Shown here: positions 45,403 through 55,779 of the stretch, in pieces | How the letters are laid out: each line of letters opens with the position of its first letter | Numbering within the stretch: position 1 is the stretch's first letter | Notes under the pieces: generated by a model | Seen by the model: the letters and a program-made list of their open reading frames with translations, nothing else | Database searches by the model: none | Told to the model about the DNA's origin: nothing | NCBI GenBank assembly: GCA_013153635.1 | Contig: JAADDZ010000003.1 | Span: 1-64,000, forward strand | Length of the DNA: 64,000 nucleotides | DNA from: Aquificota bacterium | GTDB lineage: Bacteria > Aquificota > Aquificia > Aquificales > Hydrogenothermaceae | Reading direction: 5' to 3' | Made by a program: the position numbers and the translations under genes

Positions 45403-47040
45403 TTAATAAACATCTCTCATAGTGTTATAAACATTGAACTTCCCTGTAGGAGTTCTTACCCAATCTCCAGTTATAGCCTTTTTAATCTTTAGAGTGTTCG
45501 CATCGTAAACCAGTATGGCGGTAGGTTCTTCTTTTTTACCCCATATAGATACCCACAGCTCTGTACCATACTTGTCAAAATCAAAATGAACAACTCTTCC
45601 TTTGTATTTCTTAGGAACTTCTATCGTTTTGATAACTTTTAAACTCTTTTTATCAATAACATGAAAACTTCTTTGGAGTTTTATATCAGGGTTCAATGTT
45701 CTATCTGCAAAGATATACTTCACTTTTGGGTGAGTCTTAACAAATAGATTTCCACCTCCTTCTCCGGGAAGTTTGATTCTAGCAACAACCTTCCACGCAT
45801 ATTCAGGGAAATTTCTCTTGTCTACACCGATACATACAATAGAACCTTCCCCTATATGTCCTGTACACCAGATAGGTCCGTATGTATCATGATAAACATT
45901 AGCACCTCTTCCCGGGTGAGGTTTCGTTCCTGTATCTACCAAAGCTTCTAATTCCTTCTCTACAGTATCAACAACTACCACTTTATTTCTCATATTAGCC
46001 GCAACAAGGAAATATCTCTTTGAAAAGTCCCAACCACCATCATGCAAAAATCTCTCTGCATCTATTATCGCTACCTTTAGATTGTGTATATCTGAATAAT
46101 CTACTAGCCACACCTTTCCAGTCTCTTTCATATTAACAACCCATTCAGGTTCTTCATGAGAAGCAACGATAGAAGCAACCCTCGTCTCCCTCATAAACTC
46201 ATTTGTATCGTAGGTATAATCACTTGTTCCTACTATTTTTAGAGGCTCTAGAGTCTGCCCGTCCATTATCACAAAAGAAGGAGGCCAGTAACAACCAACA
46301 ATAGCAAGCTTATCTTTGTAATTTCCATACTTACCTGCATACTTACTAACATCTACAGAACGAGCATCATAACAAGCCTTAACCTCTGCAACTTTATCAG
46401 GTTTTGGCAACCATAGGTCGATAAGAGTAACCTTTCCATCTCTACCGATAGAATAGAAGTATCTACCAGAAGCAGAAGCCCTTAGTATATGGACAGCAAA
46501 ACCTGTATCTACAATATTGACTAACTCCTTTCGGCTACCGTCTATTATCGCTACCTTTCCAACATCTCTAAGGATAACTCCAAAGAAGTTCTGCCAATCT
46601 CTATCATGAGCAGGAGAAGTAGGTCTATGGTCTACAGGTACATAAACCTTCCATGTACTTTTTATCTGTGCCAAAGACCTCTCTGGAGGTTCTGGAGGAG
46701 GATTAAATAGATACTTTGCCAATAGCTTAATCTCTTCTTTTGTTAAAACCCCCTGTCTTCCCCAGTCAGGCATTCCCCCGGGAGTACCATAATAGATAAA
46801 ATCTTCTATAACCTTAGGGGTAAAACCCTTCTTCTTAAGTGTGTGAGGTTCTAAGTTAGGACCAGTTGCCCCTTTACGGAGCATTCCGTGACAACCAGCA
46901 CACCTATCAAAGTAGAGTTGAGCCGCCTTTTCCATCTCTTCAGGAGTTAATGTATAATCCTCCTTTGCCGATGAAGTAGAAGAAAACATAAAAAACCCGA
47001 CAGACACAGCTAAAAGACCTGTCATCAACCGCCTTCTCAT
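45403..47040 (-). CDS. nirS: Cytochrome cd1 nitrite reductase
   Basis: Reduces nitrite to nitric oxide in the periplasm. A 545 aa precursor with a signal peptide (1-25). The cytochrome c domain holds CAGCH at 47-51 and a Met in PGGMPDW as axial ligand. The d1 propeller starts near 130. His184 in FAVHILRASASG is in the position of the d1 iron ligand, and His333 (FLHDGGW) and His375 (KPHPGRG) are 42 residues apart like the catalytic pair His327/His369 of the Pseudomonas enzyme. SD AAGGAGGG precedes the ATG. It is the first gene of the nir operon and probably controlled by the FNR-type site 93 bp upstream. Confidence 0.96.
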   Translation of the reverse strand: MRRRLMTGLLAVSVGFFMFSSTSSAKEDYTLTPEEMEKAAQLYFDRCAGCHGMLRKGATGPNLEPHTLKKKGFTPKVIEDFIYYGTPGGMPDWGRQGVLTKEEIKLLAKYLFNPPPEPPERSLAQIKSTWKVYVPVDHRPTSPAHDRDWQNFFGVILRDVGKVAIIDGSRKELVNIVDTGFAVHILRASASGRYFYSIGRDGKVTLIDLWLPKPDKVAEVKACYDARSVDVSKYAGKYGNYKDKLAIVGCYWPPSFVIMDGQTLEPLKIVGTSDYTYDTNEFMRETRVASIVASHEEPEWVVNMKETGKVWLVDYSDIHNLKVAIIDAERFLHDGGWDFSKRYFLVAANMRNKVVVVDTVEKELEALVDTGTKPHPGRGANVYHDTYGPIWCTGHIGEGSIVCIGVDKRNFPEYAWKVVARIKLPGEGGGNLFVKTHPKVKYIFADRTLNPDIKLQRSFHVIDKKSLKVIKTIEVPKKYKGRVVHFDFDKYGTELWVSIWGKKEEPTAILVYDANTLKIKKAITGDWVRTPTGKFNVYNTMRDVY

Positions 47041-47097
47041 CTAAACACCCTCCTTGGATTTATTTGGTTAAACTTCAACTTTTAACTTAAAAGTGGG

Positions 47098-47140
47098 CTA
47101 ATAGCCATTCAATACAGTGTATAAATTTGATGAAAATCAT
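47098..47140 (-). promoter_or_regulatory. FNR/CRP-type site and -10 of the nirS promoter
   Basis: TTGAT-GAAA-ATCAT (47127-47140) matches the FNR consensus TTGAT-N4-ATCAA in 9 of 10 positions. On the nirS strand, TATTAG (47103 down to 47098) suits a -10, placing the centre of the dyad about 42 bp before the start of transcription, the classic activator position. The start would be near 47091, leaving a 50-nt leader. Confidence 0.6.
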
Positions 47141-47195: not shown

Positions 47196-47277
47196 TCAAA
47201 GTTGTACAATCTATTGTTTGATGGTTTGTAAACACTTAACTAATTAGTAAAAGAAAACCAAAGGAGGCACCTTTGTG

Positions 47278-50082
47278 ATGGAAAATTTAAAAATTAATAG
47301 GAGAGACTTTCTAAAAACAGCCGCGGCAGTATCAGCCGCTTTGACAGTCGGGATAGATGTTCCACAGGAGGCTATCGCCGCCATAAAAGAAGCAGAAAAA
47401 GATTGGAGATGGGACAAAGGTGTATGTAGATTCTGTGGGGTCGGGTGTGGAATTTTGATAGCCACAAAAGGAAACCGCGTAGTAGCAGTAAAAGGAGACC
47501 CTCAAGCACCTGTTAACAGAGGTCTAAACTGTATAAAAGGATACTTCAATGCAAAGATAATGTATGGAAAAGACCGTCTTACAAAGCCCTTACTTAGAGT
47601 AAATGAAAAGGGAGAATTCGATAAAAAAGGAAAATTCAAACCTGTAAGTTGGGAAAAAGCATTCCAAGTGATGGTTCAGCAGTTCAAAAAAGCCTACAAC
47701 GAACTAGGACCTACAGGAGTAGCCATATTTGGCTCTGGACAGTACACAATATTTGAAGGCTATGCGGCGGCAAAATTGATGAAAGCTGGTTTTAGAAGTA
47801 ACAATATAGACCCAAATGCAAGACACTGTATGGCAAGTGCAGTTGCTGGATTTATCCAAACATTTGGTATAGATGAACCTTCTGGGTGTTACGACGATAT
47901 AGAGCTAACAGACACAGTAGTTACATGGGGTGCAAACATGGCAGAATGTCACCCTGTTCTATGGTCAAGGGTAGCAGACAGAAAACTTAGTAATCCAGAT
48001 AGAGTCAAAATCGTAAACCTATCTACTTACAGAAATAGAAGCTCTGACTTAGCAGATATGGAAATCATCTTCAGACCTCAAACAGACTTAGCAATCCAAA
48101 ACTATATACTAAGGGAAATTGTATACAATAACCCAGACGCCATAGATAAAGAATTCGTAAATAAATACTGTGTATTTGCTACTGGTTATGTTGACATTGG
48201 ATACGGAATGAGACCAAATCCAAATCACCCAAAATACAGCCCAAAAGAAAGAGAAACAATGAAAAAAGAAGTTGAAAAAATCGTATCAAGAAGAGAAGAA
48301 GTTTCTTTGAAATACCTAGGAGTAAGAGCTGGTCAAATTATGAAAATGAAACATAACAAATCCGCCGGCAAACACTGGCTTATAAGCTTTGAAGATTTCA
48401 AAAAAGCCTTAGAACCATACACTTTAGATTTTGTTGCCGAAATTGCAAAAGGAGACCCAGAAGAACCATTAGACTCTTTCAAAGAAAAGCTAAAAACCCT
48501 TGCAAACCTGTACATGGAAAAAGGCAGAAAAGTAGTAAGCTTTTGGACAATGGGTTTCAATCAGCACAATAGAGGAACATGGGTAAACGAAAATATCTAT
48601 TCTATCCATCTCCTTCTAGGAAAACAAGCAAAACCGGGAAGTGGAGCTTTTAGCTTAACAGGGCAACCATCTGCATGTGGAACAGCTAGAGAAGTTGGAA
48701 CATTTTCCCATAGATTACCTGCAGACATGGTAGTATTCAATCCAAAACATAGAAAAATATCTGAAAAGATATGGAAAGTTCCTGAAGGAACTATAAATCC
48801 AAAAGTAGGCTCTCACATCGTTAAAATTATGAGAGATATAGAAGATGGAAAGATAAAATGGGCTTGGGTTCAAGTTTGTAACCCATGGCAAGATACAGCC
48901 AACCTAAACCACTGGCTCAAATCAGCGAGAGATATGGACAATTTTATTGTTGTTTCAGATGCATATCCTACAGTTTCCTGTAAAGTCGCTGACCTGATTT
49001 TACCTAGTGCTATGATTTTTGAAAAATGGGGTATGTATGGAAACTCTGAAAGAAGAACCCAAGCATGGAGACAGCAGGTAGTAGCCCCGGGAGAAGCTAT
49101 GCCAGATGTATGGCAGATAGTAGAATTCTCCAAGTACTTTAAACTAAAAGAAGTATGGAAAAAGTGGAAACTCCCTGATGGAACTGTACTTCCTAATGTA
49201 TTAGACAAAGCAAAAGCTATGGGATACAGTCCAGACGACACCCTTTTCGATGTTCTATTTGCAAACGAAGAAGCCAAAAAATATAGATGGCCAGACCCTA
49301 TCGGAAGAGGATTCCATAACACAGAAGCCGCAGGAGACGGAAGAAATATAATAGGTACTGATGGAAAACTATTCAAAGGATACGGTTTCTTCATACACAA
49401 ATACATGTTCGAAGAGTACAGAAAATTTGGTCTTGGTCATGCTCACGACCTTGCAGATTTTGACACATACTACAAAGTAAGAGGTCTTAGATGGCCTGTA
49501 GTAGACGGAAAAGAGACCCCATGGAGATTCAATGTAAAATACGACCCTTACGCACGAAAACTTAGAACGAACCCTGACGATGAGTTTGCCTTTTATGGAC
49601 CAGCCCTAAAATCTCTTCCAAAAGGAGACTTAATAGAACCTAAAACAAAAGAAAAATTCAGCCTAAAAAATAAAGCAAAAATCTTTTTCAGACCGTATAT
49701 GGACCCTCCAGAACTCCCTGATAATGAATATCCTTTCTGGCTAGCTACTGGAAGAGTTATCGAACACTGGCATACAGGTTCTATGACTATGAGAGTTCCT
49801 GAACTATACAGAGCAGTACCAGAAGCGGTCTGTTTTATGAACCCTAAAGACGCCAAAGAGATAGGTGTAAAAGATGGAGAATACGTATGGGTTGAAAGTA
49901 GAAGAGGTAGAGTTAAAGCTAGAGTAGAAACAAGAGGAAGAAATAAACCTCCTAGAAAATATGTATTCATTCCTTTCTTTGATGAAAGGATATTAGTTAA
50001 TAAGGTATGTTTAGACCATACCTGTCCAATATCCAAAGAAACAGACTACAAAAAAGCGGCTGTAAAAATATATAAGGCATAA
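47278..50082 (+). CDS. napA: Periplasmic nitrate reductase catalytic subunit
   Basis: Reduces nitrate to nitrite with a Mo-bis-MGD cofactor. A 934 aa precursor with a twin-arginine signal ([13 protein letters not shown]). The [4Fe-4S] ligands are Cys50, 53, 57 and 85 (CRFCGVGC..., LNC). The Mo ligand is Cys184 in [11 protein letters not shown], and [17 protein letters not shown] is a typical MGD-binding segment. A linker with inserts around 310-350 makes it long, as in Campylobacterota NapA. SD AAGGAGG at 47261; ATG 47278 chosen, GTG 47275 is equally close. First gene of napAGHBFLD. Confidence 0.96.
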
Positions 50083-50891
50083 TGGAAAAGAAAAAGCAAA
50101 AGAACTTAAGTAGAAGAAAATTTTTTATAAAAAGTTTCCAAGCAGTAGGCTTATCTGTATTAGGGGGTTTAATGTGGGGAGCATATATAGATGAAGCTGT
50201 CAGCGCTCCCCTTGTTTTAAGACCTCCCGGAGCTTTACCAGAAAAAGAATTTTTAAAAAAATGTATAAAATGTGGGCTTTGTGTAGAGTACTGCCCGTAT
50301 GAAACTCTCAAACTTGCCAAACCCGGAGAAAATCTTCCATTAGGTACACCTTACTTTGAACCTAGGAAGGTACCCTGTTACATGTGTACTGATATTCCGT
50401 GTGCAGTAGCTTGTCCCACAGGAGCATTAGATACAGATACAGTATCAGACATAGAAGATGGGAAAAAAGTTTTGAATATAAACAAAGCCCGTATGGGTTT
50501 AGCTGTGATAAATACAGAATCCTGTATAGCATACTGGGGTATTCAGTGTGACGCGTGTTATAGAGCCTGTCCCTTGATAGACAAAGCTATAACCATAAAC
50601 TACATGAGAAACGAAAGAACAGGAAAACATGCCTATCTAGTTCCTGTAGTTCACAGCAATCATTGTACAGGTTGCGGTCTTTGTGAATATGCTTGTGTTA
50701 CAGTAGAACCTTCTATATATGTTTTACCAAGGCATATAGTAAAAGGAAAAGCTGGACAGCATTATCTAAAAGGTTGGGAAACAGAACAAAAGCTCCAAAT
50801 GATACAAGAAAAAAGAAGTAGGTTTGTTACTCCAAGAAGTGAAAAATCCCCCCTCGAATATCTAAACGAAGGAGACCTTCTAAATGATTAG
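50082..50891 (+). CDS. napG: Ferredoxin-type protein NapG
   Basis: A 269 aa exported iron-sulfur protein with a twin-arginine signal (SRRKFFIKSFQ). Four [4Fe-4S] motifs are seen: CIKCGLCVEYCPYETLKL, CYMCTDIPCAVACPTGAL, CDACYRACPLIDKA and CTGCGLCEYACVTVEP. With NapH it forms a quinol dehydrogenase feeding electrons to NapAB. Begins one base before the napA stop ends and overlaps napH by 8 bp. Confidence 0.94.
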   Translation: MEKKKQKNLSRRKFFIKSFQAVGLSVLGGLMWGAYIDEAVSAPLVLRPPGALPEKEFLKKCIKCGLCVEYCPYETLKLAKPGENLPLGTPYFEPRKVPCYMCTDIPCAVACPTGALDTDTVSDIEDGKKVLNINKARMGLAVINTESCIAYWGIQCDACYRACPLIDKAITINYMRNERTGKHAYLVPVVHSNHCTGCGLCEYACVTVEPSIYVLPRHIVKGKAGQHYLKGWETEQKLQMIQEKRSRFVTPRSEKSPLEYLNEGDLLND

Positions 50892-51708
50892 CAAATTTAT
50901 CTTTAAACATAGATACCTTCTTCTTAGAAGAGCTGTCCAGATAAGCATCATTTTTTTATATATCGCAGGGAATATATACGGCTGGAACATACTAAAAGGA
51001 AACCTAAGCATGGGAAAACTCTTCGAAGTTATACCTTTGGCTGACCCATATGCAGTACTACAGATGATATTCGCTGGAGCATTATTACTATGGGACGTTC
51101 TGATAGGAGCTGTTATAGTTTTTATCTTTTATGCACTTTTTTCTGGCAGAGCTTTTTGTAGCTGGGTCTGTCCAGTAAATATCGTTACAGACACAGCTAA
51201 CTGGATAAGAAAAAAATTCAAACTAGACAAAGATGAATGGCAATTAAGATTTTCTAGAAAAGTTAGATACTGGATACTAGGTTTAAGTCTTGTAATGTCT
51301 CTAATAATGGCTGTCCCTGTATTTGAGTTTGTAAGCCCTATATCTATGCTCCATAGAGGACTCATATATGGAATGGGATTTGGTTGGGCGGCAGTTTTAA
51401 CAGTATTTCTATTTGATTTATTTGTTACAAAAAACGGGTGGTGTGGACATCTTTGTCCATTAGGAGCTTTTTATTCTTTAACAACTTCTAAATCAGTTCT
51501 TAGGGTATATCATATCCAACCTCACTGTACCCTATGTATGAACTGTAAAAATATATGTCCAGAAAAACAAGTACTCTCCATAATAGGAAAAGAAAGCGGT
51601 TATATAAACTTTGGAGAGTGTATAAACTGTGGAAGATGTATAGAAGTATGCAATGATGATGCTTTGAAATTTTCTCTAAGATACATAAAAAAAGAAAAGG
51701 AGGGTTAA
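50884..51708 (+). CDS. napH: Membrane ferredoxin-type quinol dehydrogenase NapH
   Basis: A 274 aa inner-membrane protein with four helices. Cytoplasmic C-x3-C-P motifs occur at CSWVCPVN and CGHLCPLG, and two [4Fe-4S] sites at CTLCMNCKNICPEKQ and CINCGRCIEVCNDD. It oxidises the quinol and passes electrons to NapG. No napC is found, so NapGH is the likely quinol route as in Campylobacterota. Confidence 0.94.
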   Translation: MISKFIFKHRYLLLRRAVQISIIFLYIAGNIYGWNILKGNLSMGKLFEVIPLADPYAVLQMIFAGALLLWDVLIGAVIVFIFYALFSGRAFCSWVCPVNIVTDTANWIRKKFKLDKDEWQLRFSRKVRYWILGLSLVMSLIMAVPVFEFVSPISMLHRGLIYGMGFGWAAVLTVFLFDLFVTKNGWCGHLCPLGAFYSLTTSKSVLRVYHIQPHCTLCMNCKNICPEKQVLSIIGKESGYINFGECINCGRCIEVCNDDALKFSLRYIKKEKEG

Positions 51709-51711
51709 AAA

Positions 51712-52191
51712 ATGCTTAAGCAGAGTATATCCGTCTTCATTGGAACAATGATTGTAGTAGGAAGCGTCCTGTACATGAGCGGGACAATAGCAGGAGAAAA
51801 AACGATAGCTCCAGAAGAGATAGGTATTAGAAAACAGACAGTTTTTACAGAAAACACCCAAGTACCAGAAGTAAAATATCCAGATACACCTCCCGGTACA
51901 GGAAAAACACTATCTAGGGCTTATCCTACTGTACCTCCCCAGATACCCCACAGCATTAAAGACTTTTTGCCTATAACAGCAAAAGAAAATGCGTGTCTAA
52001 ACTGTCATATGCCAGATGTAGCCAAAACAGTAGGCGCAACACCTATACCCCCTTCTCACTTCCAAAGAAGATTCTCCAAAACAGGAAAACCTATCTACAA
52101 AATAGCCGGAGCAAATTACTACTGTGTATCTTGCCATGTACCCCAAGCAAATGTAGAGCCACCAATAGAGAACGTTTTTGGCAAACAATGA
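51712..52191 (+). CDS. napB: Diheme cytochrome c subunit NapB
   Basis: Small electron-transfer subunit of periplasmic nitrate reductase, 159 aa. Signal peptide at about 1-27. Heme c motifs CLNCH (95-99) and CVSCH (138-142) are present. His80 (PQIPHSI) and His116 (PPSHF) are in the positions of the axial ligands of NapB. SD GGAGG precedes the ATG. Its stop overlaps napF. Confidence 0.94.
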   Translation: MLKQSISVFIGTMIVVGSVLYMSGTIAGEKTIAPEEIGIRKQTVFTENTQVPEVKYPDTPPGTGKTLSRAYPTVPPQIPHSIKDFLPITAKENACLNCHMPDVAKTVGATPIPPSHFQRRFSKTGKPIYKIAGANYYCVSCHVPQANVEPPIENVFGKQ

Positions 52192-52688
52192 ACAGACGCC
52201 AGTTCTTTAAAAAGCTTCCTCATATGGCTAAAGACCTGATAGCGGAAGAAAAACCTGTTATCAGACCTCCCTATTTTTCAGAAGAACATATACAAAAATG
52301 CAAAAAGTGTGAAGGCTTTTGTGTTACAGCCTGCGAAGAAAGAATAATATTTAGGTTAGAAGACGGTTCTCCATACCTTGAGTTTAGAGAATCAGGGTGT
52401 ACTTTTTGTAGAAAGTGCAGTGATGCATGTTTAGAAGATGTTATATCTTATGAAAGCCTACCCCAAGACAAAATCAAAACCACTATAAGAATCCAAACTC
52501 AAACATGCCTCGCATGGAATAAAACCATATGTAATTCGTGTAGAGACGTTTGTATAGAAAATGCCGTCAAATTTTTAGGTCTATTTAATCCTCAAATAGA
52601 CCATGACAGATGTACAAGCTGTGGGTTTTGTGTAGCAAAATGTCCTGTCTCTGCAGTACAGACAGTACAAAAAGAGGAGATATATTGA
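52188..52688 (+). CDS. napF: Ferredoxin-type protein NapF
   Basis: A 166 aa cytoplasmic iron-sulfur protein thought to interact with NapA during cofactor loading. Motifs: CKKCEGFCVTACEE, CTFCRKCSDACLED, CNSCRDVCIEN and CTSCGFCVAKCPVSA. The N-terminal MNRRQFFKKL looks like a weak Tat-like sequence, as in known NapF. The ATG at 52188 overlaps the napB stop (ATGA); an open frame continues upstream to 51993 but has no family similarity there. Confidence 0.9.
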   Translation: MNRRQFFKKLPHMAKDLIAEEKPVIRPPYFSEEHIQKCKKCEGFCVTACEERIIFRLEDGSPYLEFRESGCTFCRKCSDACLEDVISYESLPQDKIKTTIRIQTQTCLAWNKTICNSCRDVCIENAVKFLGLFNPQIDHDRCTSCGFCVAKCPVSAVQTVQKEEIY

Positions 52689-53635
52689 AAAAATTTCTTC
52701 CAGCTATTTTACTTTTTTATACGGTGTATGCTCAAACCGTTTTAACCCCAGAAAAAATACTCTTAGCCGAAGGGGGTGTAAAAGATGTCACTTACAAAAA
52801 CCAGCTTCTTTATATCGCCACAGAGATAGGAACAGTAGAGATATTTAACCTAAACACAGGAAAAAAAGTCCAAAAAATCACCCTACCAAACATAAAAGAT
52901 TTCTTCGATGAACCTATAAAACCAAAAGTGTACTCCATAGACGTATCATCAGACGGGACAATCTATATGTTAGTCCAATCTACTGAAGGATTCTCCCAGC
53001 TTTACAGATACAAAAACAAAAAACTAGAACTCCTTATCCCAGAAAAACAAAAACTACTCGCAGTAAAAGCTAAACTGTACAAAGACAGATACATACTTCT
53101 TGGTTTACCAGCAAACGACATCATCTTATATGACCTGAAAAATAAGAAAAAAGTCTACCAGCTACATATTAGCCGTTCTCCTTTTTCAGATTTTGCAATA
53201 AACAAAGACCATGTAGCGATAGCCTGTGAATCAGGTATAGTCTATATAGTACACATACCTACAGGAAAGATAGAACAAAACATTCCTAAAATGAACCTCG
53301 ATAAAACATTCAAAATAGACTTTAAAGGAAACTACATATTTACCGGAGGAAGAGATAAAAAAGCCACCCTCTATAACCTAAAAACAAAAGAAAAACATGT
53401 ATTCAAAGCAAAATTCTTCGTATATTCGGTAGGTTTAAGCCCGTCCTTAAAATACGGAGCTTACGGTATAAACGAACAAAGTGATATAGCAGTCTTTGAT
53501 ATACCATTAAAAACAACCAGATACATACTAAAGGGACATTCTTATGCTCTTAACAATATTCTGTTTATAACAGATAACCAGCTAGTTACAACAGACGAAT
53601 CAAGGAAAATCCTTTATTGGAGGTTAAAACAATGA
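52685..53635 (+). CDS. napL: WD40-like periplasmic protein NapL
   Basis: A 316 aa exported beta-propeller with a signal peptide (LKKFLPAILLFYTVYA). Propeller strands occur regularly (LYIATEIGTVEIFNLNTGK, YIFTGGRDKKATLYNL, YILKGHSYALNNILF). It fits NapL, an accessory protein found in the Campylobacterota nap clusters; its exact role is not settled. TTG start at 52685 overlaps the napF stop and has SD GAGGAG 5 bp upstream; the open frame to 52610 has no family similarity. Confidence 0.82.
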   Translation: MKKFLPAILLFYTVYAQTVLTPEKILLAEGGVKDVTYKNQLLYIATEIGTVEIFNLNTGKKVQKITLPNIKDFFDEPIKPKVYSIDVSSDGTIYMLVQSTEGFSQLYRYKNKKLELLIPEKQKLLAVKAKLYKDRYILLGLPANDIILYDLKNKKKVYQLHISRSPFSDFAINKDHVAIACESGIVYIVHIPTGKIEQNIPKMNLDKTFKIDFKGNYIFTGGRDKKATLYNLKTKEKHVFKAKFFVYSVGLSPSLKYGAYGINEQSDIAVFDIPLKTTRYILKGHSYALNNILFITDNQLVTTDESRKILYWRLKQ

Positions 53636-53934
53636 ACATCTCTAGTGCTGTAGTTAAAGTAGCCCCTAAGTATCTTAACCAAGTCCTAAATCTCCTAGAA
53701 GAATCGCAACTATGTGAAGTTCATTTTTACGACGACCAAGGAAAGATAATCATAACAGTAGAAGCAAACAACGTAAGTGAAGAAATGGAAAAATTTGACA
53801 GAATATCCAAACTAGACCACGTACTATCTGTAGACCTTGTTTACTGCTACAGTGAAGAAGAGCTAGCAGACGCCATAGATGAATTTCATAGACTAGAAGA
53901 TAAATATGTACCAGATGCCTTGAAAGATGCCTAA
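53632..53934 (+). CDS. napD: Nitrate reductase chaperone NapD
   Basis: A 100 aa cytoplasmic protein that binds the twin-arginine signal of NapA and holds back its export until the cofactor is inserted. Ferredoxin-like fold with ISSAVVKVAPKYLNQVLNLLEES and KIIITVEANNVSEEMEKFDRISKLDHVLSVDLVYCY. The ATG overlaps napL stop. Overlaps the next gene by 8 bp, which indicates the operon continues. Confidence 0.88.
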   Translation: MNISSAVVKVAPKYLNQVLNLLEESQLCEVHFYDDQGKIIITVEANNVSEEMEKFDRISKLDHVLSVDLVYCYSEEELADAIDEFHRLEDKYVPDALKDA

Positions 53935-54493
53935 AAATCAGATTCTTGAAAAAACTTTCGATATGTTTTGGGAAACAGATGTCCCAGAAAACGAACTTAT
54001 CATATCTAGGACAGACCTAAAAGGCACAATAACATATGCAAATGAGACCTTTGCAAAAATATCAGGATACTCTGTAGATGAACTAATAGGAAAACCTCAT
54101 AATATCATAAGACACCCAGACATGCCCAAAAGCATATTCGAAAATCTCTGGAGTACAATCAAGCAAGGAAAAAAATGGGAAGGATATATCAAAAACCTAA
54201 GGAAAGATAAAGGATACTACTGGGTTAAAACAGAAATATCAGGAATATACAAAAATGGAAAACTTATAGGATACAAATCAATGAGATACAAAATATCTGA
54301 TACCCAAAAAAGACAGATGCAGAACCTATACGACAAAATAAGAGAAGAAGAAGAAGGAATAGTAAGGTTAGTCATATATACAAAAAAAGAAGTATACGAA
54401 AAATTAGAAGAACTTTCAAAAAAACTAAACAAACACCCAGTAGAGATAGTAGAAGAGGCAATTTTAAACTTTGATTACATAAAGGAGGGGTAA
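53927..54493 (+). CDS. PAS (Aer-type) protein with probable C-terminal ribbon-helix-helix domain
   Basis: A 188 aa protein coupled to napD by an 8-bp overlap. Residues 20-125 form a PAS domain of the Aer type, with LIISRTDLKGTITYANETFAKISGY, the HNIIRHPDMPK motif, and YYWVKTEISG; such PAS domains often bind FAD and sense redox state. After a short charged helix (126-143), residues 145-183 look like a ribbon-helix-helix DNA-binding unit: a strand (VRLVIYT), a helix (KEVYEKLEELSKKLN) and a second helix (PVEIVEEAILNF). No chemotaxis or kinase output domain follows. A one-component redox-responsive regulator is inferred. Confidence 0.72.
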   Translation: MPKNQILEKTFDMFWETDVPENELIISRTDLKGTITYANETFAKISGYSVDELIGKPHNIIRHPDMPKSIFENLWSTIKQGKKWEGYIKNLRKDKGYYWVKTEISGIYKNGKLIGYKSMRYKISDTQKRQMQNLYDKIREEEEGIVRLVIYTKKEVYEKLEELSKKLNKHPVEIVEEAILNFDYIKEG

Positions 54494-54495
54494 GC

Positions 54496-55779
54496 ATGAA
54501 GAAAAAATTTGTATTAGCAGGAGCAAGCTTATTGACCTTTGGGTTATTAAGTTTACATCAAACAGAAGGAATCAAGCTAAAAAAAGCTTTTGCAGACCAA
54601 CCATTTATCAGCGGAATCGAAGCCCACTTACAGATTAGACCTAGATACGAATACGTTGATGTAGAAAACAGCCCAAACAAAGATGCAAACGCACTTACAG
54701 TGAGAACAGCAATTACTACAAAACTAAAATCCCTATTTGGAATAAAAGGATTTAACGGAATCATAGAAGCCGCAAATGTTGGTGCTATCATAGACGACTA
54801 CTCACCTCAAAAGCCAAACTATGAATTAGTTCCAGACCCGCCAATAACTAGATTTTCCCAATTTGCAGTAACCTATACCAAAAATAAAACGACCTTCATA
54901 GGAGGTAGAGTTTACGTAACCATAGATGACCATAGATTTATCGGTAATGTTCCATGGAGACAGATGTATCAATCTTTTGGTGTTTTAGCAGTTTCAACAA
55001 AAGCGGTTAAAAACTTTAACCTACTTCTTGCTGGGATATACGAAAGAAAAGGAATTATAGACGATCTCAATGCTGACTGGAGACTAGATAAAATGCCTCT
55101 AGTACTAGATATAAACTATTCAGCCCACAAATCACTAAGACTAAAAGCGTTTGCCTATATGATAACAGACGTTCACGACACATTTGGTCTAAAAGCTTCA
55201 GGAAAAGTAAAACTAGGAAAAGTAAAACTCTCCTACCTAGGAGAATACGCAAAACAAGACAGTCCTTATGCTTTAGATAATCTCCCTGCCAATCCAAACA
55301 TAGACGCAAACTACTACAGATTATCTCTTGGAAGTGTTTCTGGTGGTTTCTTTGGAAACATTATGTACACACATTTTGATGGAAGAGATACAGGAGAAGA
55401 CAAAGGATTTTCCACACCGTTAGCTACACTGCACAAATTTGAAGGGTGGTCTGATGTACTCCTACTCGGAGCCGCAAACGGATTTGACTATGGGCTAAAC
55501 GAAGTAGGACTCACTTTAGGATATAAAAAACCAGACCTTGGAAATCTTATGCTTATTTATCTCATATTTAAATCTGATATGAATCCTACAGACCCAACAG
55601 TAGGAAAAGATATTGGAAAAGAGCTTGATGTACAATACACCAAAAAACTCACACCTCATTTATCCTTCTTAGCAAAAGCCGCATTTTACAGAGCAGATGA
55701 CGGGTATTACACAGGAGGCACCCTAAAAGGTACTCAAGATGTAAAAAAATATTGGCTTCAGCTTAACTACCTATACTAA
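54496..55779 (+). CDS. Porin-like outer-membrane protein
   Basis: A 427 aa exported protein. Signal peptide near 1-35. The mature part shows repeated amphipathic strands with aromatic girdles and ends in LNYLY, as in OprP-like or alginate-export-like barrels. It is 2 bp downstream of the PAS gene and so probably in the nap operon. A channel for nitrate or nitrite is an inference; general porin function is equally possible. Confidence 0.72.
   Translation: MKKKFVLAGASLLTFGLLSLHQTEGIKLKKAFADQPFISGIEAHLQIRPRYEYVDVENSPNKDANALTVRTAITTKLKSLFGIKGFNGIIEAANVGAIIDDYSPQKPNYELVPDPPITRFSQFAVTYTKNKTTFIGGRVYVTIDDHRFIGNVPWRQMYQSFGVLAVSTKAVKNFNLLLAGIYERKGIIDDLNADWRLDKMPLVLDINYSAHKSLRLKAFAYMITDVHDTFGLKASGKVKLGKVKLSYLGEYAKQDSPYALDNLPANPNIDANYYRLSLGSVSGGFFGNIMYTHFDGRDTGEDKGFSTPLATLHKFEGWSDVLLLGAANGFDYGLNEVGLTLGYKKPDLGNLMLIYLIFKSDMNPTDPTVGKDIGKELDVQYTKKLTPHLSFLAKAAFYRADDGYYTGGTLKGTQDVKKYWLQLNYLY

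Follow-up and report, generated by a model that had tools for sequence, protein, structure and literature searches.

Several described systems share one part of the protein analysed here. The Aer protein of Escherichia coli (8dik) carries a PAS domain followed by a membrane anchor, a HAMP domain and a chemoreceptor signalling domain. Its FAD is contacted by H53, R57, W70, N85 and R115 (PMC9668731), and residues R57, H58 and D60 are needed for FAD binding (PMC2628428). NifL and MmoS are redox sensors of the same FAD-PAS subfamily with kinase-like or protein-protein outputs. CetB, which functions in Campylobacter energy taxis, and the CetB-like proteins are small soluble proteins with an Aer-type PAS domain, and the CetB-like proteins are encoded beside chemoreceptor-like genes. 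A PAS domain-containing protein has been drawn together with nap, nir, nor and nos genes in the denitrification map of Nitrosophilus labii; it was annotated as PAS only, and its C-terminal domain was left undescribed (PMC11539149, Fig. 5A legend). Archaeal Arc-RHH-HisKA-REC proteins, which contain a ribbon-helix-helix (RHH) domain, exist (PMC5847659), but that pairing differs from PAS-RHH. The initial annotation of our locus held that no common regulator is known to combine a PAS with an RHH domain, and our search of open-licence PMC papers likewise found no description of a PAS-RHH protein or regulator.

We analysed a 64,000-nucleotide stretch of DNA (the window) from a member of the Hydrogenothermaceae (Aquificota), which contains a periplasmic nitrate reductase operon of the napAGHBFLD type. 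The operon encodes a PAS-RHH protein, hereafter nap-PAS, and its genes are as follows.

47275-50082, + strand: napA, the first gene of the operon (NCBIfam NapA)
50082-53635, + strand: napG, napH, napB, napF and napL (NCBIfam for G, H, B and F; NapL by position and WD40-like sequence, with no NCBIfam match)
53632-53934, + strand: napD, chaperone for NapA (NCBIfam NapD, E 8e-9)
53927-54493, + strand: nap-PAS, 188 amino acids, ATG start, TAA stop (open reading frame, translation and orthologues)
54496-55779, + strand: outer-membrane porin-like protein, the next gene (open reading frame; class by inspection, with no NCBIfam match)

Since napD spans 53632-53934, it overlaps the nap-PAS gene by exactly 8 bp, as first annotated, and the stop codon of nap-PAS is separated by 2 bp from the porin-like gene, which adjoins the nap-PAS orthologue in many genomes. 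The napD overlap and the operon position support a geometry of co-transcription, in agreement with the earlier proposal that the protein is made from the same mRNA as nitrate reductase. Next to napA, a divergent gene (45403-47040, - strand) encodes a protein whose N-terminal part is a cytochrome c and whose C-terminal region, by eye, resembles cytochrome cd1 nitrite reductase (NirS-like); in two related genomes (G004 and G016) a similar gene is placed after the nap operon instead.

The nap-PAS protein consists of an Aer-type PAS domain, a short linker and an RHH domain, an architecture in which the membrane anchor, HAMP and signalling domains of Aer have no counterpart and in which an RHH domain takes the place of the outputs of NifL and MmoS. 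Its parts were delimited as follows.

53975-54298, + strand: Aer-type PAS domain, residues ~17-124, signature IIRHPDMP (Pfam, PDB 8dik, Foldseek and invariant columns)
54299-54349, + strand: linker helix, residues 125-141, with conserved MQxxYDxMR (model and alignments)
54362-54385, + strand: ribbon strand, residues 146-153 (VRLVIYTK), with R147 and Y151 unchanged in all rows of the 12-row alignment (alignments)
54386-54487, + strand: RHH helix A (154-167), turn and helix B (171-187) (model, hhalign, Pfam and Foldseek)

The assignment of the first part to an Aer-type PAS domain, already made in the initial annotation, was confirmed by a Pfam PAS_3 match (E 1.8e-18), by Foldseek and by the conserved RHPDMP signature. 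The nearest solved structures to residues 17-126 were the PAS domain of E. coli Aer (8dik, E 4e-35), followed by MmoS and NifL (2gj3), and the PAS domains of nap-PAS and Aer are 40-45% identical. The residues that contact FAD or are required for its binding in Aer map at an offset of +5 to H58, R62, W75, N90, R120, H63 and D65 of nap-PAS, and all seven were invariant in a 12-row alignment covering two phyla; a further FAD contact of Aer, M69, corresponds to L74. The invariance of these positions makes it likely that nap-PAS binds FAD.

The C-terminal part was identified less directly. As a single sequence, the C-terminal 43-residue fragment matched Pfam RHH_3 with an E-value of 2.6e-4 and 21.3 bits, 0.3 bits below the curated cut-off of 21.6, and a PDB sequence search with the C-terminus alone gave no significant match. 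On its own, this near miss would be compatible with a plain helical tail that resembles RHH by chance. However, the C-termini of 43 orthologues matched RHH_3 (13), RHH_1 (13), RHH_5 (9) and RHH_7 (7), alongside the non-RHH families DDRGK (8) and IF2_N (7) with weaker or similar E-values, and one orthologue C-terminus (G008:C29:58753-58848) was picked up above the RHH_1 cut-off when its genome was searched blind. When the orthologue C-termini were compared by hhalign with 29 RHH_1 proteins from the same order, the probability was 96.7% with a score of 43.5 over 38 columns, whereas 100 column-shuffled controls reached 16.0 at best. A Foldseek search with the C-terminal model returned mostly RHH chains, with CopG on top at a TM-score of 0.76-0.80, normalized by target length; the E-values were weak because the domain is tiny. 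The AlphaFold monomer showed the linker helix (125-141), an extended segment, a helix (154-167), a turn and a second helix (171-187), which ruled out a lone coiled coil, the structure that the initial annotation had set against its own RHH proposal.

These four independent tests firmly establish residues 146-180 as an RHH fold homologous to MetJ, Arc and CopG, with the same strand-helix-helix order and matching core positions and turn. The RHH pattern first noticed in the last 40 residues thus stood, and the profile comparison that had been suggested for it was borderline for the single sequence and firm with the orthologues. A chance resemblance, ruled out by the shuffled controls and by the Pfam families across the orthologues, is highly improbable.

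In RHH proteins the ribbon face that meets DNA corresponds to positions 147, 149 and 151 of nap-PAS. The aligned residues of nap-PAS, R147, V149 and Y151, form the most conserved part of its C-terminus. R147 and Y151 fit DNA binding, because R-x-Q-x-Y is also found in ordinary RHH proteins from the same family (MKRTQIYLDEE; L115, L120 and L122). Position 149 is hydrophobic (V or I) in nearly all nap-PAS proteins, whereas the RHH proteins compared have mostly S, N, T or Q; in the middle of the presumed DNA-contacting face such a residue is less usual and, unlike R147 and Y151, does not fit DNA binding, and it also distinguishes nap-PAS from CopG, MetJ and Arc. Net charge was dropped as an indicator of DNA binding; it was uninformative because RHH_1 proteins from the same order span -4 to +8.

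Orthologues of nap-PAS occur in two phyla. Among 136 Aquificota genomes, 17 carried the gene, all of them Hydrogenothermaceae, and in a sample of 397 genomes from the class to which an Arcobacter belongs (Campylobacterota) it was found in 95, a count made at E <= 1e-50 in which a few weaker matches may be paralogues. The profile separated orthologues (204-285 bits) from other Aer-type PAS proteins, most of which scored below ~150 bits and a few at 175-186. The PAS gene of Nitrosophilus labii probably belongs to the same family, to judge from its place with the nap, nir, nor and nos genes.

CetB-like proteins share with nap-PAS the linker-helix region (xxxLYxxL), but they score below 150 bits and have a different C-terminus. 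Their genomic setting also differs: a CetA-like chemoreceptor gene did not characterise the neighbourhood of nap-PAS, and nap genes were present in the window and near 77 of 86 orthologues, within ~1.5 kb of flanking sequence (more for some loci). The remaining nine loci (L043, L051, L052, L064, L070, L073, L075, L077 and L094), of which some have a full RHH and some an eroded one, had no nap gene within ~1.5 kb, and no common theme was found in their neighbourhoods. The gene keeps a conserved place within the nap operon or at its end, with a gene order that differs among loci (L044, L050, L053, L057, L061, L066, L067, L071, L089, L025, L026 and L028): it follows napD in Aquificota and Arcobacter, but in Sulfurimonas-type and some Sulfurovum-type loci it comes after napL and before napD. 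Of 20 relatives with napA, 15 carried the nap-PAS gene and five did not; since four of the latter (G004, G009, G016 and G059; the fifth is G022) have complete and otherwise similar nap operons, nap-PAS is accessory and not essential.

A tree of the PAS region, rooted with CetB-like PAS proteins, placed full-length RHH forms at its base, so the RHH domain appears to be ancestral among nap-PAS proteins, although the tree was built from few alignment columns relative to its number of sequences and its deep forks are therefore uncertain. A clade of 31 members (Arcobacter, Sulfurimonas and relatives; support 99/95) has lost the helices: 29 proteins stop no more than a few residues past the ribbon, and the other two retain a short stub. 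The 29 ribbon-ending orthologues keep R-x-[VI]-x-Y, and because they end at the ribbon they cannot bind DNA as RHH proteins do. A second erosion was found in Sulfurovum-like lineages. Across the shortened forms, R147 and Y151 were kept in 44 of 44 proteins and position 149 was V, I or L (R-x-[VIL]-x-Y). Neither a remnant of the RHH nor an RHH gene of its own was found in the 400 bases downstream, or anywhere in six long loci, so an RHH gene split off downstream in the truncated species was rejected for the stretches searched. Loss of the helices with retention of the ribbon is the main new fact of this analysis and the main reason for caution about function.

In the full-length proteins the helices are maintained. 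Among 11 full-length Hydrogenothermaceae orthologues, pN was lowest in the PAS domain (0.051), followed by the ribbon (0.075) and the helices (0.19); pS, near 0.7 (0.72 for the helices), was saturated. The RHH helices are under purifying selection in this family and are less constrained than the ribbon.

These patterns bear on whether the RHH fold is a DNA-binding module at all. It might instead serve for dimerization or partner docking, with nap-PAS as a CetB-like signalling adaptor in which the R-[VI]-Y face docks on the PAS domain or on a partner, such as a chemoreceptor or a nap maturation protein, and the helices are merely stabilizing and dispensable. The helix-less Arcobacter and Sulfurimonas clade, the persistence of the ribbon motif in the short forms, the lack of a downstream remnant or split-off gene and the hydrophobic centre of the would-be DNA face all favour docking, as does the location of the closest PAS-only paralogues (L016-L020) beside chemoreceptor-like genes, resembling the CetA/CetB arrangement of Campylobacter jejuni (PMC2628428). 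However, the full-length helices match many DNA-binding RHH families without gaps over their whole length and are under selection, the C-terminus of nap-PAS is unlike that of CetB-like proteins, and no partner was identified. We consider dimerization or docking without DNA binding a serious candidate but, on balance, somewhat doubtful.

The region upstream of napA contains two features of possible regulatory relevance.

47078-47094, no strand assigned: perfect 17-bp palindrome ACTTTTAACTTAAAAGT, a possible operator in the interval that separates napA from the divergent cytochrome gene
47127-47140, + strand: Crp/Fnr-type box TTGATGAAAATCAT in the napA upstream region (PMC11539149 gives the consensus TTGA-N6-TCAA)

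The palindrome ACTTTTAACTTAAAAGT is the only copy in the genome at zero or one mismatch. Within the genus, both remaining genomes have a counterpart, G001 an exact one and G002 the core alone, but none was found in other genera that carry the nap-PAS gene; the palindrome therefore cannot be assigned to nap-PAS. Across the napA upstream regions of genomes with and without the gene, palindromes differed between genera, and no operator tied to the presence of nap-PAS was found. Crp/Fnr boxes, also reported in Nitrosophilus labii (PMC11539149), were present upstream of napA in the Hydrogenothermaceae examined, whether or not they had nap-PAS, and the genome of the window encodes one Crp-type HTH protein (PF13545).

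The prevalence of these boxes would agree with a scenario in which Crp/Fnr took over nap from an ancestral PAS-RHH regulator whose RHH part is now a fading relic, eroding stepwise from the C-terminus in most lineages, that of the window included. Partial forms that look like stages of loss (L025, L027, L046, L054, L064, L070, L073, L075, L089 and L094) point the same way, but the ribbon stays conserved in truncated proteins even where it forms their very end, and the full-length Hydrogenothermaceae forms are under purifying selection. We regard decay of this kind as unlikely.

A separate element, an ACCGCC-loop-GGCGGAATAnAAnTAnCC leader, is conserved upstream of napA in 12 loci (L134-L137, L139-L143 and L151-L153; for example, L135:1609-1650, L152:1754-1777 and L153:600-622) and is missing from the window. 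It resembles an H-type pseudoknot in which the loop strand pairs with a strand further downstream, and the paired sequences covary (CTGGG/CCCAG, GTATG/CATAC and GGTTCGG/CCGAACC). No Rfam match was obtained at the gathering threshold in five of these loci and the window, or at E-values up to 5 in five loci. The leader is a candidate riboswitch or nap leader of the Hydrogenothermaceae.

Our preferred reading is that nap-PAS is a flavin-based, redox-sensing PAS dimer that, in the full-length lineages, binds DNA through its RHH domain, a proposal that we judge to be evenly balanced. The FAD-PAS sensor would be soluble, most likely a homodimer, and expressed together with the periplasmic nitrate reductase operon, and its flavin, like that of Aer, would follow the respiratory chain's redox state. 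A redox change might then travel along the conserved linker helix (MQxxYDxMR) and alter how the two ribbons pair or how exposed they are. In the full-length lineages the ribbons may contact an operator and adjust nap or related respiratory genes beside a Crp/Fnr regulator.

Because one lineage has shed the helices and kept the ribbon, the ribbon may have a second role, for example docking between PAS and ribbon that gates DNA binding by redox. The fuller history that combines such a role with a PAS one-component regulator with RHH output, ancestral to the nap operons of two phyla, is tentative, and we place it a little short of even. The structural reading given in the initial annotation is right; its functional reading, a gene switch, is plausible but unproven, because in many relatives the greater part of the DNA-binding fold is gone.

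If nap-PAS does bind DNA, one small protein, translated from the nitrate reductase transcript itself, would let the respiratory redox state control nitrate reductase expression; feedback by this route is undescribed for nap in the literature searched. Even without DNA binding, nap-PAS is a widespread and uncharacterized member of the nap operons of vent bacteria and Campylobacterota that is usually annotated as PAS only, and its family presents a testable puzzle, in which a DNA-binding fold has been stripped back to its ribbon while the ribbon itself stays invariant.
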